Positions 9,668-31,397 of a stretch of 32,094 bases of DNA are shown here, piece after piece. Origin of the DNA: a virus; IMG/VR virus record IMGVR_UViG_3300042881_000586, positions 1 to 32,094 of that record, one strand, 5' to 3'. Each line of letters starts with the position of its first letter. The first letter of the stretch is position 1. The notes beneath the pieces are model-generated. The model ran no database searches, had not been told where the DNA came from, and saw only the letters and a list, made by a program, of their open reading frames with translations. Both the position numbers and the translations under genes were made by a program.

Positions 9668-9683
9668 GTTGCTTTCGTGCAAC
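9668..9683. repeat. Isolated GTTGC-N6-GCAAC dyad
   Basis: GTTGC, six bases, GCAAC: the same arms and spacing as the four-copy array near 23.5 kb. It sits one base beyond the stop of the second tailspike gene, ahead of the scaffold gene. A companion 6-bp dyad CTGATG-AAACG-CATCAG lies at 9628-9644. It could be a protein site or a weak RNA hairpin separating the adhesion block from the head genes. Confidence 0.6.
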
Positions 9684-20812: not shown

Positions 20813-22341
20813 TAGGCACCCATCCAAGTGTTAATCATGCCGCTCTCGCGGCTAGTAGTAATCGTGCGCGGTCGCTCGCGGTATTCGCGGTGCGCCACTG
20901 GATACGCAAACGTGACGGCGATGGCATCGGCAGCGTCGGGCGATGCAAGGCCACGCGCCTTCATGTCTTTCTTCGACTCCAACAAGATGGAGCCAGAGGA
21001 ATTAATTTTCTGTTTTGGCCCTGTCAGGTCAGCCTTTAACTGCCTATCATTGGGTAGCGCAGCGTCTTTCAGCCACGCTTTCATTTCGCCCCACAACTCT
21101 GCACGCTTGTTTTGCCACATAGCCGGGGTCTTGGACTTCCATCCGAAGTTAACGCCACGCACTACCTTATAGCGCTGCTCTTTCAAGCGATCAAGGATGC
21201 CGTAGCCTAATCCGCCTTCGTCGAGGACGACGAGTGTGGGTTGGTACTCTTCAATCGCGTCGATAACTCGGCCAACAATCTCCATCGTGTCTTCGCCTTT
21301 AAAGCGCTTGATGGCGATGATGTCTCGACCTTTGCGGACGGCGATAACGGTTGAGTCCGCTCCGCTGCGAGCCGGATCGACTCCAATAACAATAGGCGCC
21401 GTCTCATCCTTGTACTTGCTACGCGACATCGCCAAATCCACAAGGCTTGGCGGTATGAATTGATCGTCTCCTTCAGACGGAAACTCGCCATAGACTTCCA
21501 CCTTGGCTTGCGGTGAGTCGATGCCGTATTCGTCGATGATCTGTTGATACACCGACTTGTCGGTTTCTTCAACGGTGCGAGCGTCAATGTTGCGGGTGTT
21601 CCAGAACGCACGCTTAGAGTGGAACGCCTCGAAGAAGTAGCCCTCGTTACGACGGGGGTTGCTAAACGACATCCAAAAACGGTGCGGGGTGTTTTCCGTA
21701 AAGAAGCCTGCCGTCACCGACCAGATGGGGTCAGGGATACCGCTGGCTTCGTCGAAAATCACCATAACGCCATCAAAGTTGTGGACACCAGCATATGAGT
21801 CGGGGTTCTCTTCCGACCACAAGCGACCTTCGACGGACCAGTAGCGAGTACCTTTCTTGAGGTCACGTTCAACCAGTTCGGCGAGCCACTTAGCGGGCAT
21901 CACGCGGGTGGCGCTAATCTCAAACCAATGCGAGTTGATGAGGAGCGCTGCCCACTTAGTAATTTCTGCCCATGTGATCGAGCGTAACTGCGCTTCCGAG
22001 TTAGCCGACACAATGGTCGTTGAACCTATGCGGGTACTCAACATCCAGAGGATGAGCCACGACACCAGAGCAGACTTACCGATACCGCGACCAGAAGCCG
22101 TTGCCATACGCAGGACTTCGTAGGAGGTTGCGGTCTTATTCTTCGCAACATGTGCGGCGATGTCGCGCAGGATTTCCCGCTGCCACTTACGCGGACCCTT
22201 GAAGTGTTCTAAAGGCGTGCCTTTCTGGCCCCAAGGGAAAGCGAGTAGCACGAAGGCCTCTGGGTCGTCCTTGATGACGGGCGACCAGAGTTTGCTCATC
22301 AGCAACTCTTCTTCTTCGGGGCTATAGATCGGCTGTTGCAC
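20812..22341 (-). CDS. terL: Terminase large subunit (ATPase and nuclease)
   Basis: 509 residues. GTG 22341 with AAAGGA upstream; it overlaps the small subunit by 20 bases, and the opening QQPIYSPEEEELLMSKLWSP is typical, so the longer start is kept. Walker A is GRGIGKS (84-90), Walker B VMVIFDEA (192-199), with a coupling motif around SFSNP (225-229). The RNase H-like nuclease has IGVDPARSGADST (D322), LVVLDEGG (D374) and SPDAADA (D469, D472). It pumps DNA into the prohead through the portal and cuts the concatemer. All key residues are present. Confidence 0.95.
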   Translation of the reverse strand: MQQPIYSPEEEELLMSKLWSPVIKDDPEAFVLLAFPWGQKGTPLEHFKGPRKWQREILRDIAAHVAKNKTATSYEVLRMATASGRGIGKSALVSWLILWMLSTRIGSTTIVSANSEAQLRSITWAEITKWAALLINSHWFEISATRVMPAKWLAELVERDLKKGTRYWSVEGRLWSEENPDSYAGVHNFDGVMVIFDEASGIPDPIWSVTAGFFTENTPHRFWMSFSNPRRNEGYFFEAFHSKRAFWNTRNIDARTVEETDKSVYQQIIDEYGIDSPQAKVEVYGEFPSEGDDQFIPPSLVDLAMSRSKYKDETAPIVIGVDPARSGADSTVIAVRKGRDIIAIKRFKGEDTMEIVGRVIDAIEEYQPTLVVLDEGGLGYGILDRLKEQRYKVVRGVNFGWKSKTPAMWQNKRAELWGEMKAWLKDAALPNDRQLKADLTGPKQKINSSGSILLESKKDMKARGLASPDAADAIAVTFAYPVAHREYRERPRTITTSRESGMINTWMGA

Positions 22342-22810
22342 GTTCGTCCTTTAGGGTTAGCGGCTCAGTAGCCTCATGCGCTAATTGATCCGGCGTAGCG
22401 TCATATACGCGGCCCGCCAAGACGCGAGATTCTGCCTCTTGCAGCGCGGCGACAATACTAATCTGGGATTTGATATCAACTTGGACTTGCTGTTTAGCCA
22501 CCCAACCATGAAGGTTTTGGAGCAGGGCAAGCGCGGCTTTGGTGTCCCCATTAATCGCGCCTTCTCGCAAGGCCGACGCTGCCTCAACCTCAGAGTCCGC
22601 ACGACCTTTCCCCTCGGCGACCGCAGCCGCGTTATCTAACTGGCAGAGTCTACGGTACTCAACGGGCAACAACCCTGCCGCAAAGGCCAAGGCATCACCC
22701 TTTAGCCCGAGTTTGGCGGCATCGTAAATCTTTTGCAGAACCTCCGGCGATGCCTTCAGTTCACGAGGCGCAAAAGGAATGGACTTAAAGGATTCTGTTA
22801 CGAGGTTCAT
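22322..22810 (-). CDS. terS: Terminase small subunit (putative)
   Basis: 162 residues from ATG 22810 with AAAGAG upstream; a longer frame to 22894 would start inside the neighbouring gene. Residues 18-60 (PRELKASPEVLQKIYDAAKL, GLKGDALAFAAGLLPVEYRR) form an HTH-like helical region; the middle helix (SEVEAASALREGAINGDTKA, ALALLQNLHGWVAKQQVQVD) resembles the oligomerisation core of small terminases. It recognises the packaging site and regulates TerL. Placement directly upstream of terL is the main support. The sequence differs from P22 gp3. Confidence 0.8.
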   Translation of the reverse strand: MNLVTESFKSIPFAPRELKASPEVLQKIYDAAKLGLKGDALAFAAGLLPVEYRRLCQLDNAAAVAEGKGRADSEVEAASALREGAINGDTKAALALLQNLHGWVAKQQVQVDIKSQISIVAALQEAESRVLAGRVYDATPDQLAHEATEPLTLKDERATADL

Positions 22811-22988
22811 ACCGGAACTCTTTGCCAGAACAGGCGGGAACGTCAGACATCCAACCGTGGTGGGTGGCATGGGCACACCAGACCTTCTCAGCAACCTTAG
22901 TCACTTGAGCGGCCCAGAAGCAAGAGCGGCATACCAGAGACTTGGCAGCAAACTCTGCCCACTCCAACTCCGACATACGTATCGACAT
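22785..22988 (-). CDS. Small Cys/His-rich protein, possible zinc ribbon
   Basis: 67 residues from ATG 22988 (ATG 22976 also possible); it overlaps the small terminase start by 26 bases. Cys and His residues are spaced as CRSC, 17 residues on WCAHATHH, then PACSG, which could bind one zinc ion. The pattern CxxCFW...WCAH..HHGW....PACSG seems familiar from small phage proteins, but no strong ribosome site is visible. First gene of the leftward late unit. Function unknown; DNA or terminase binding is a guess. Confidence 0.55.
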   Translation of the reverse strand: MSIRMSELEWAEFAAKSLVCRSCFWAAQVTKVAEKVWCAHATHHGWMSDVPACSGKEFRYEPRNRIL

Positions 22989-23039: not shown

Positions 23040-23135
23040 GGGCTATGCCCAACCAGTCTGCTCTGGCGAGCAGCAACGTGCAGGGTGATCCTGCCGGGAG
23101 GCCGCGATCTCCAACAACCGTGGAGCCTGTGTGCC
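23040..23135. other. Run of stem-loops beside terminase genes (candidate structured RNA or packaging site)
   Basis: Non-coding block with successive perfect short stems: GGGC-TAT-GCCC (23040-23050), CTGCTC-TGGC-GAGCAG (23058-23073), GCAGG-GTGAT-CCTGC (23080-23094), CTCCA-7-TGGAG (23109-23125) and GCCT-8-AGGC. Another, ACCAG-CGCAT-CTGGT, lies at 23217-23231. A T-loop consensus, CCA end and U33 are missing, so it is not a tRNA. On the leftward strand it would lie in the late mRNA leader. Direction and function are unknown. Confidence 0.5.
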
Positions 23136-23240
23136 GAGGCGGAAGCGTCTAGGGATACGTTTAGTGCCTTAGATGGTGCATCCCTTACGGGCTGCTTCAG
23201 TTACCTCTCGGTCGCTACCAGCGCATCTGGTCAGACGTTG

Positions 23241-23312
23241 CTAATAAAGGATAACGGTAAAAGGTTTATTAGCGAAGAGCGTTAATAAAAAAAATTAAAA
23301 AGTTTTTGTGAG
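23241..23312. repeat. AT-rich inverted repeats (possible unwinding element)
   Basis: CTAATAAA (23241-23248), TTTATTAG (23265-23272) and TTAATAAA (23282-23289) alternate in orientation. The last two make a 10-bp stem with a 5-base loop and one G-T wobble. A run of A/T follows up to 23312. Neither strand gives a stem followed directly by a U-tract, so a terminator is unlikely. Next to an iteron-like array it could be the melting zone of an origin. Confidence 0.5.
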
Positions 23313-23356: not shown

Positions 23357-23374
23357 TGTTGTTTTGCCACAACA
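23357..23374. repeat. Dyad TGTTGT-N6-ACAACA
   Basis: 6-bp arms TGTTGT and ACAACA are separated by six bases, matching the 6-6-6 geometry of the nearby GTTGC-N6-GCAAC array when its flanking T and A are counted. It lies just after a C4-A-C8 tract. A further TGTTGTG half site follows at 23379. Likely a diverged member of the same protein-binding series. Confidence 0.5.
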
Positions 23375-23451
23375 CCCTGTTGTGCGTGTACCACAAGCCT
23401 AGACGCGAATGGTTATCGTTATGCGTAAGCGAATCGTTTGCAATACGTTAT

Positions 23452-23535
23452 GTTGCGTAGATGCAACACGTTGCGTTTATGCAACATGGCTACGTTGTTG
23501 CGTAGATGCAACAGTTAGTGTTGCGTAGATGCAAC
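23452..23535. repeat. Array of four 16-bp palindromic repeats
   Basis: Copies at 23452-23467, 23470-23485, 23497-23512 and 23520-23535. Three read GTTGCGTAGATGCAAC exactly; the second has GTTTAT in the centre. Gaps are 2, 11 and 7 bases, much too short for CRISPR spacers. Arms are conserved and the asymmetric centre is nearly so, as expected of iterons or multiple operators for one dimeric protein. Placed between the divergent late and early units. Confidence 0.85.
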
Positions 23536-23554
23536 AAGCGGAGGTGTTAGCAAT

Positions 23555-23594
23555 CCGTAGTGACTACGGGAGGCTCTGTAGTCATTTCGACTAC
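23555..23594. repeat. Two adjacent dyads built on GTAGT/ACTAC
   Basis: CCGTAG-TGA-CTACGG (23555-23569) and GTAGTC-ATTTC-GACTAC (23578-23594) are perfect 6-bp inverted repeats sharing the word GTAGT or its complement. Further on, GTTAGTAA (23635-23642 and 23759-23766) and its complement TTACTAAC (23715-23722) recur. From 23595 to 23840 no gene is visible; the stretch is AT-rich with these words only. Confidence 0.55.
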
Positions 23595-23840
23595 TAACGC
23601 TCAAACCCTATAAAAATAGGCATTTACGATCAATGTTAGTAAGTCAGTAAGTATTCTTTCCCTATACTTTTTATGTATCAACTTTTTTTGCAACTTCACT
23701 ACTCTCTATCTTTTTTACTAACAATACGTTTTTCTCCATGTTTTTCAGTAGTTTAGGCGTTAGTAATTTTCACGCTAACTTCTGAATAGTGCTACTACGC
23801 TTACTGACGCAACAGATACCTAGCGTTTTGTGTATGTAAC

Positions 23841-23874
23841 TTGTGTTGACAGCATCGACACAACAAGGTGTAAT
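23841..23874 (+). promoter_or_regulatory. Strong rightward sigma70 promoter with overlapping dyad operator
   Basis: TTGACA (23846-23851), 17 bases, TGTAAT (23869-23874): a near-consensus promoter. Transcription should begin near G23881, 28 bases before the first gene. An inverted repeat with TTGTGT (23841-23846) and ACACAA (23858-23863) as outer arms pairs 8 of 9 positions and covers the -35 box, so a repressor site is likely. It drives the tiny-gene unit to the terminator at 26179. Confidence 0.85.
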
Positions 23875-25465: not shown

Positions 25466-25675
25466 ATGTCACAAAACGAACAGATCCGGGCCGCGTTACT
25501 TGCGGGCCGCACGCTAACCCCTTTGGATGCGCTTACCGAGTTCGGATGTTTCAGGCTAGCCGCACGCGTGGCCGATCTCAGGCGCTCCGGGCTGGATATC
25601 GAATGCCAGACTGAAACTCAAAACGGCAAGCGGTATGCACGCTATGCACTGAGGGCACCACATGCGATTTCCTAA
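25466..25675 (+). CDS. Small winged-helix DNA-binding protein, HTH_39-like
   Basis: 69 residues from ATG 25466 with GAGGGC upstream; the longer frame from 25367 overlaps the previous gene. NEQIRAALLAGRTLTPLDAL, EFGCFRLAARVADLRRSG (about 27-44) and a beta wing (IECQTETQNGKRYARYAL) match the phage helix-turn-helix family often named HTH_39. The arrangement of an entry helix, a helix-turn-helix and a wing suggests DNA binding. It may regulate this unit or the dyads upstream. Confidence 0.78.
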   Translation: MSQNEQIRAALLAGRTLTPLDALTEFGCFRLAARVADLRRSGLDIECQTETQNGKRYARYALRAPHAIS

Positions 25676-26178: not shown

Positions 26179-26207
26179 GAGGGGGCTTCGCGCCCCCTCT
26201 CTTATTT
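26179..26207 (+). terminator. Intrinsic terminator ending the rightward early unit
   Basis: GAGGGGGC, five-base loop, GCCCCCTC (26179-26199) followed by TCTTATTT. It starts 2 bases after the last rightward stop codon. The leftward helicase gene ends at 26202 on the other side, so the same hairpin may also act, more weakly, on the leftward transcript. Confidence 0.85.
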
Positions 26208-27527
26208 CACCATCTGCAAGTCTGGCTTGCCCTCGACCATCGCCCGGATGTCTGACTTGCTGCGGTCTGCTAACTCGGGAGCCACCCAGAGGTGTTTCGG
26301 GGTCTGATGCTCGCGGCTCATTACCCGGCCAATATCCTTCCAGCCGCTCTCTCGCAGGGCGACGAATAACGTCTCACGAGACGGCTTATGGCCGTCCGTA
26401 CCTGCGGCAATACCAGACAGCACCTCCGACCATGGAGAGCCTATAACGCCTCTGGCGAAGACTCCGCGACGTTGCCGCACCATATCCGCAACAAACGCCT
26501 CGCCGCCGCTCATGCCTAAATCAACCATGGCTAACTTCGCATCGGTTAACGGCGGTACGGCTCCGGGGTTGAACGCGCTAACGTCTCGCGCATCGAGGTA
26601 ACCCGCCACAGCCTCAAATCCGCCTTTGCTGTACCAATCCCACAGCCTCGCGGCCTCGTCGTCGGGTAGGCGTGGCGCTACCGACCACACCACAAACCAG
26701 CGTCTATCGTCAGCCGGAATCGTAATGGGCGCTCGATCATTACTAAACGCCAGCACGAAAATCCTATTCACCACATAGTACGGATGTTGTTGCTTCTTGT
26801 TGACTAGCAGCAATTCAGGCGGCGCAGCGATCACGGGCTTCAGGTTGTTTTCCATCGCCCTGCGGTCATCGCCCTTACGGTATCGAATCTCGTTTAGCAC
26901 GATCACCTCGGACTCGTAGGTATAGCCCCATGAGCCAGCGACCTCTTCAGCCCTAGCCACGGCTATGTTCTTCAGCGAACCGCCGCCAATAGACCACAGG
27001 AAAGGCGCCCAGAGCGTGTCCTTACCACCACCCGGCAAACCCGTATGCAGGACGGCATGGTTTATCTTGCGGCTCGGGTTCTGGCGCTTGTACGCCATCA
27101 CGTTCAAAACGTGTTCGCGCTCGAAGTCGGTCGGGATCATCCGGTGCAGGTGATTCAGCCACAGCGATACGTCCGCGCCCTGTGCGGCTGGCCGTGAGTC
27201 CTTCCACTTGTTGACGTAGCCCACCCCGGCCTTCTTTAGTAACTCCGTCTCGCCCGGCGCATACGTCAGGGCGTTAGCGACGTAACTACCCATGGCAGCC
27301 CGGTTCTCATCGAAGAACGTGGCCGCCTCAATGCGCCTAGCCTTGTTATGTACGGAATAACACGGCGTACCCCGAAACAGGGCGTTAAACGTCTGCCGGG
27401 AATAGTCCTGATGCGTCTTCACATCGAAAAACAGGTCGCCCTCGGCAACGTAAACAAATCGTTTAAACCAGTCAGCCGGTGCCAACTGCGATACATCACC
27501 ATCCGCGAGACTTTCGTATTCATCCAT
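26202..27527 (-). CDS. Phage replicative helicase / primase-helicase-like ATPase (DUF5906-like)
   Basis: 441 residues, ATG 27527, with only a GGGG-type ribosome site. Walker A is GLPGGGKDT (163-171), Walker B EVIVLNE (207-213), followed by KPVIAAPPELLLVNKKQQHP and sensor VLAFSND (258-264), then DDRRWFVVW with likely arginine fingers (R275, R276). This is the superfamily 3-like D5/DUF5906 layout. The N-terminal 150 residues lack a recognisable primase active site, so it may act as helicase only. Last gene of the leftward early unit that also carries recombination genes; probably unwinds the phage origin. Confidence 0.85.
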   Translation of the reverse strand: MDEYESLADGDVSQLAPADWFKRFVYVAEGDLFFDVKTHQDYSRQTFNALFRGTPCYSVHNKARRIEAATFFDENRAAMGSYVANALTYAPGETELLKKAGVGYVNKWKDSRPAAQGADVSLWLNHLHRMIPTDFEREHVLNVMAYKRQNPSRKINHAVLHTGLPGGGKDTLWAPFLWSIGGGSLKNIAVARAEEVAGSWGYTYESEVIVLNEIRYRKGDDRRAMENNLKPVIAAPPELLLVNKKQQHPYYVVNRIFVLAFSNDRAPITIPADDRRWFVVWSVAPRLPDDEAARLWDWYSKGGFEAVAGYLDARDVSAFNPGAVPPLTDAKLAMVDLGMSGGEAFVADMVRQRRGVFARGVIGSPWSEVLSGIAAGTDGHKPSRETLFVALRESGWKDIGRVMSREHQTPKHLWVAPELADRSKSDIRAMVEGKPDLQMVK

Positions 27528-31190: not shown

Positions 31191-31218
31191 AGTATACTCC
31201 CGTTGACGATCCTGTCAA
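31191..31218 (-). promoter_or_regulatory. Strong leftward early promoter (PL-like)
   Basis: On the leftward strand: TTGACA (31218-31213), 16 bases, TATACT (31196-31191). Near consensus, start expected near 31184. Its -35 box lies inside an 18-bp palindrome shared with the rightward promoter. It drives the recombination and replication genes. Confidence 0.87.
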
Positions 31219-31219
31219 C
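31202..31219. promoter_or_regulatory. 18-bp palindromic operator between divergent promoters
   Basis: GTTGACGATCCTGTCAAC: perfect 6-bp arms around a 6-base centre. Each arm supplies the TTGAC of one -35 box, so a bound dimer would block both promoters. The adjacent Cro-like gene is the likely source of the binding protein. Geometry (6-6-6) equals that of the dyads near 23.4 kb, though the arm bases differ. Confidence 0.8.
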
Positions 31220-31231
31220 ACCTGTTACTGT
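31203..31231 (+). promoter_or_regulatory. Rightward promoter of the Cro-like gene
   Basis: TTGACG (31203-31208), 17 bases, TACTGT (31226-31231), with the key A at -11 and T at -7. Predicted start at 31238-31239, which coincides with the ATG. No ribosome site exists upstream. Confidence 0.6.
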
Positions 31232-31238
31232 GCAATCT

Positions 31239-31397
31239 ATGACACCCAAACAACTACTGAAGATTTATGGCTCCCAGAGCGAGATTGCTCGGGCGTTGGG
31301 CGTAACCCGGCAGGCTGTGCTGCGCTGGTTCAAGGAAGACAAGATTCCTGCGTTGCGCCTGTATCAAATTCAATGCGTGCTGAAGGTCAATGAATAA
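31239..31397 (+). CDS. Cro-like helix-turn-helix regulator (P22 Cro-type)
   Basis: 52 residues from ATG 31239; a longer frame from 31083 covers the promoters and is rejected. TPKQLLKIYGSQSEIARALG, VTRQAVLRWFKEDKIPALRL: helix-turn-helix at about residues 13-33 with the Cro-type Q-S-E-I-A-R-A-L-G-V-T-R-Q-A-V pattern. P22 Cro is 61 residues. It probably binds the adjacent palindrome and switches the early promoters. No ribosome site; likely leaderless mRNA. No CI-type partner is visible in this window. Confidence 0.88.
   Translation: MTPKQLLKIYGSQSEIARALGVTRQAVLRWFKEDKIPALRLYQIQCVLKVNE

Follow-up and report, generated by a model that had tools for sequence, protein, structure and literature searches.

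The window analysed here, 32,094 nucleotides of viral DNA (positions 1 to 32,094 of IMG/VR record IMGVR_UViG_3300042881_000586), contains a control region of about 900 bp between the gene for the small terminase subunit (terS) and the rightward genes, and this region holds an array of four palindromes. In our judgement there is about an even chance that the control region is a replication origin with two kinds of repeats, namely iterons for the phage helicase and, separate from these, the palindromic dyads. The order from left to right is terS, a structured RNA, an A-tract, a C-tract, the palindrome array, the GTTAGTA repeats in their AT-rich zone, a promoter-like site and the rightward genes.

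The array occupies positions 23451-23536 and consists of four near-identical 18-bp palindromes with the unit TGTTGC-GTNNRT-GCAACA, none of which is assigned to a strand. Copies 1 (23451..23468), 3 (23496..23513) and 4 (23519..23536) all read TGTTGCGTAGATGCAACA and have the arms TGTTGC...GCAACA, and copy 2 (23469..23486), CGTTGCGTTTATGCAACA, has the arms CGTTGC...GCAACA. The exact GTTGC-N6-GCAAC frames begin at 23452, 23470, 23497 and 23520, with start-to-start distances of 18, 27 and 23, and their centres are in this order GTAGAT, GTTTAT, GTAGAT and GTAGAT. An earlier note on this DNA had described the four copies and their non-palindromic centre, and both are confirmed; the window contains five exact frames, far above the mean of 0.04 and the maximum of 2 in random shuffles of the window, and the pattern with the constant centre matches only the four array copies in the window record. 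Two putative degenerate copies, assigned by similarity and likewise without strand, are located to the left of the interval first noted, at 23357..23395 (TGTTGTTTTGCCACAACA at 23357 and TGTTGTGCGTGTACCACA at 23378). The fifth exact frame, at 9668-9683, has a different centre and does not belong to an array; this lone hairpin directly follows the end of a tail-fibre-like gene, with no clear T run behind it.

Relatives were gathered from viral contigs in two ways, by their helicase and by a pattern of two palindromes, and 51 distinct intergenic regions were taken from them for comparison of the array. About 45 of these have it in the corresponding position, close as well as distant relatives being among them. 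The spacing of 18 then 50 is constant in most of the array-bearing relatives, and the median distance is about 212 bp to the RNA element on one side and about 308 bp to the rightward promoter on the other. In the near-complete relatives this is the only array of the motif. Copy 3 is frequently TGTGGC...GCAACA, and most relatives have TGTGGCGTAGATGCAACA at this position. In the profile of distinct sites the right half GCAACA is strongly fixed, the left half tolerates change at one position, and the middle two positions are free, with a conserved G..T asymmetry around them (the centre begins with G and ends with T in 112 of 130 exact-arm sites). The claim that the conserved centre exceeds what a dimer site would need is overstated, since the fixed flanks merely lengthen the dyad to 8+2+8 bp, with a single fixed asymmetry. 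The dyad form predicts a dimeric ligand. A double-motif search of host genomes gave three unrelated matches and no prophage of this phage group. Two distant podophages, DSL-LC05 (L182 16097-16622, ACCCASTGGGT type) and ctNMl277 (L183 16437-16807, GTTTAYGTAAAC), likewise have a palindrome array at the equivalent place beside terS, but the palindrome sequences are unrelated to those of the window phage, and a BLAST search for the RNA element had no match in them.

The most AT-rich intergenic stretch (0.67-0.72) is located directly to the right of the array. This zone (23592..23765, no strand) contains four GTTAGTA repeats, at 23592-23598 (-), 23635-23641 (+), 23716-23722 (-) and 23759-23765 (+), with a spacing of 43, 81 and 43, and it is proposed to hold the helicase iterons and the unwinding region. 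The earlier note had placed an inverted repeat 150-200 bp from the array and a helicase gene in the same genome, and both are found: the arms of the repeat are 23592-23606 and 23751-23765, which include two of the four GTTAGTA repeats, and the gene at 26202..27527 (-) encodes a DUF5906 helicase of 441 aa, similar to the C-terminal region of NrS-1. When the loci are sorted by the identity of their helicase to that of the window, the repeat type follows the helicase class. GTTAGTA is present in 24 of the 25 loci with at least 86% identity (86-100%) and AGGTCA in none of them, whereas all six loci with 51-55% identity have AGGTCA and lack GTTAGTA (three copies in four loci, and one each in L086 and L146). 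The group with 62-66% identity has mostly ATGGTCA-like repeats, with GTATCCA in L046. The types of terS and of the HTH_39 protein do not track the GTTAGTA/AGGTCA split. The strongest evidence for the link between repeat and helicase comes from backbone-matched recombinants, where terS is near-identical and the helicase has been exchanged, namely L107 (terS 100%, helicase 54%) and L089 (terS 99%, helicase 54%), with about 30% in the iteron zone.

Between the helicase classes residues 361-400 are 28% identical, compared to 63-78% in the ATPase core. This most divergent segment lies inside a predicted C-terminal winged helix (residues about 341-415, 26283-26507 on the minus strand), which is modelled as alpha-beta-alpha-alpha-beta-beta with a block pLDDT of 66-89 in a model that is weak as a whole (mean pLDDT 58). 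The best PDB matches of this partly low-confidence model are to the C-terminal helicase region of the NrS-1 phage primase-polymerase (E 3e-4), but the window helicase is without the primase-polymerase domain. The repeat type follows the helicase class and the classes differ most in this C-terminal part, as is known for SaPI Rep and Cch2, whose C-terminal domain reads short iterons, so that the helicase probably binds the GTTAGTA set and not the palindromes. The helicase had also been suggested to bind the array, but in this role it is rejected, as its class and the other repeat set change while the palindromes stay unchanged. Since the array persists across the helicase classes, it probably serves some other protein.

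In the origin that we propose, extending from terS to the rightward genes, the helicase would use its winged-helix tail to read the GTTAGTA repeats of the AT-rich zone, as in the origins of P4 and SaPIs. The palindromes would constitute a separate invariant module, in which each dyad would bind a dimer, either of a different winged-helix protein or of a host DNA-binding protein. This dimeric protein would assemble cooperatively on the four palindromes and might then aid the unwinding of the AT-rich zone or the loading of the helicase, like lambda O on its four iterons. A possible first candidate is the 69-aa HTH_39 winged-helix protein encoded by 25466..25675 (+), which is present in nearly all relatives. 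DnaA boxes (TTATNCACA) in the relatives lie within 900 bp of the array in 9 of 12 cases, against 2.1 expected. DnaA-box-like sites (TTATCCACA) are located to the right of the array in the intergenic region of L227, L232 and L132.

In the lambda ori an AT-rich tract accompanies four iterons, each an imperfect inverted repeat of 19 bp (PMC7466680), and the window array is similarly a tandem series of imperfect inverted repeats in the range of 18-20 bp with an AT-rich tract at its side. It is however intergenic, whereas in a lambda-type origin the iterons are inside an O-like initiator gene, and the window region has in addition a second, helicase-tied repeat set. SaPI Rep and Cch2 have short iterons that are read by the C-terminal domain, and the inverted repeats nearby are not needed for Cch2 binding (PMC7581432). 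The E. coli PICI origins have an AT-rich region flanked by two iteron sets (PMC6092414). The likeness to P4, SaPI and PICI origins is that the short repeats of the AT-rich zone, which are the GTTAGTA set and not the palindromes, go with the helicase allele, and that the divergent C-terminal domain of the helicase is predicted to bind DNA; the differences are a distance of 2.4 kb to the helicase gene, a helicase without a primase domain, and an invariant palindrome array that additionally adjoins the iterons. GTTGC-N6-GCAAC arrays in unrelated phage and cyanobacterial contigs are mostly inside lambda-O/DnaD-like initiator genes (L081, L114, L122, L151, L249 and L250), and L061 has its array in an HTH gene that lies shortly before a DnaB-like gene, with L149 and L094 as exceptions to this placement. 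These arrays were found by searching with the present motif, indicating that such sites occur in initiator genes and not that all arrays do.

Several observations weigh against a replication origin of this kind. No lambda-O-like protein was found among the genes of the window phage that were scanned or read, the window itself has no DnaA box, and the GC skew, which the earlier note had proposed as a check, does not switch at the array, either in the window or in G001. Four other phages with HTH_39 have no GTTGC array in the stretches read, which is neutral to negative for this candidate, and HTH_39 was not found in L046 and L055, yet L046 has a degenerate array. The relatives share ancestry, and the counts from them given here are not independent samples.

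It is rather unlikely that the array is instead a cooperative operator, where a phage or host regulator would switch the late operon to the left, the RNA element, or both. The array is located between divergent transcription units, the dyads with their variable outlying copies look operator-like, and the phage encodes HTH_39 and Cro-like proteins, but a scan for promoters found none in the leftward direction at the array, the conserved promoter-like TTGACA-17-TGTAAT of the rightward genes (23846..23874 on the plus strand, TATAAA in other relatives) is some 308 bp away, and in the near-complete relatives the motif is arrayed only here. The Cro-like gene (31235-31393 on the plus strand, 52 aa) has a dyad of its own, GTTGAC-N6-GTCAAC, in its promoter at about 31198-31215 (the whole feature being 31198-31393). 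As this dyad differs from the palindromes, the Cro-like protein is disfavoured as array ligand. The description of the array as iterons or a cooperative operator in the earlier note was a fair one, considering the conservation, the several marks of an origin in the region and the lack of another array; the helicase as ligand has to be given up.

A packaging initiation site, pac or cosB-like, is an unlikely explanation. The small terminase would here recognize the palindromes and packaging would start there, and terS (22322..22894 on the minus strand), the first late gene, would encode the ligand, with the gene start about 480-560 bp off. The distance of the array to terS and the RNA element is mostly kept, all phages with the array have a conserved TerS, helix-turn-helix region included, TerS of ctNMl277 is only 52% identical and the palindromes differ there, and two GTTGC palindromes are found inside the unrelated terS-like gene of L065, as well as in look-alike genes. 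On the other hand, TerS varies from 63 to 100% while the palindrome sequence is often unchanged, and the contigs of near-complete relatives begin at differing places of the map with no fixed end seen. The terminase-small-subunit-like genes with two GTTGC palindromes are those of L065, L088, L091, L143, L144, L153 and L154, the family having been checked for L065 only.

That the palindromes act as RNA or single-strand hairpins, in the form of terminators or processing sites, is very improbable and the terminator reading is rejected, for although copy 1 scores terminator-like and the G..T of the centre could form a wobble pair, no proper T run follows the copies, the centre is an unpaired G..A in distant relatives, and the conserved and widespread TGTGGC...GCAACA copies break the stem, so that a protein site on double-stranded DNA is likelier.

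The structured RNA element adjoining terS (23073..23241, neither strand being favoured by its G-U pairs) is found in all relatives, the most distant included, and the block is more conserved across the whole set than the start of terS. It has five covarying helices with compensatory changes in all of them; 98.4% of the cells are paired and 14 pairs are changed on both sides, compared to at most 43% paired in slid controls. Rfam has no family for the element, giving only sub-threshold chance matches, and a search of the annotated phage collection did not find it either. It may be a more novel object than the array, and is a candidate for a new RNA family from a phage group without close members in that collection. 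With a good deal less than an even chance, the region might be a modular origin with two independent codes, namely invariant palindromes for one protein and iterons that are exchanged along with the distant helicase gene, where the undescribed structured RNA next to the origin would take part in initiation or its control. Relatives with nearly the same backbone and exchanged helicases and iterons amount to a natural experiment that can tell which repeat is read by which protein, and initiator specificity is thereby directly testable by swaps of the C-terminal domain. The conservation of the array suggests that a further factor, as yet unnamed, binds the origin.

With its 32 kb the window is a fragment, and comparison with G001 suggests that the full map is circularly permuted and measures about 38 kb. 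By inspection, no DNA polymerase or integrase was seen in the window or in the extra 6 kb of G001. These approximately 6 kb, absent from the window, contain lysis-type and ejection-type genes, also by inspection.
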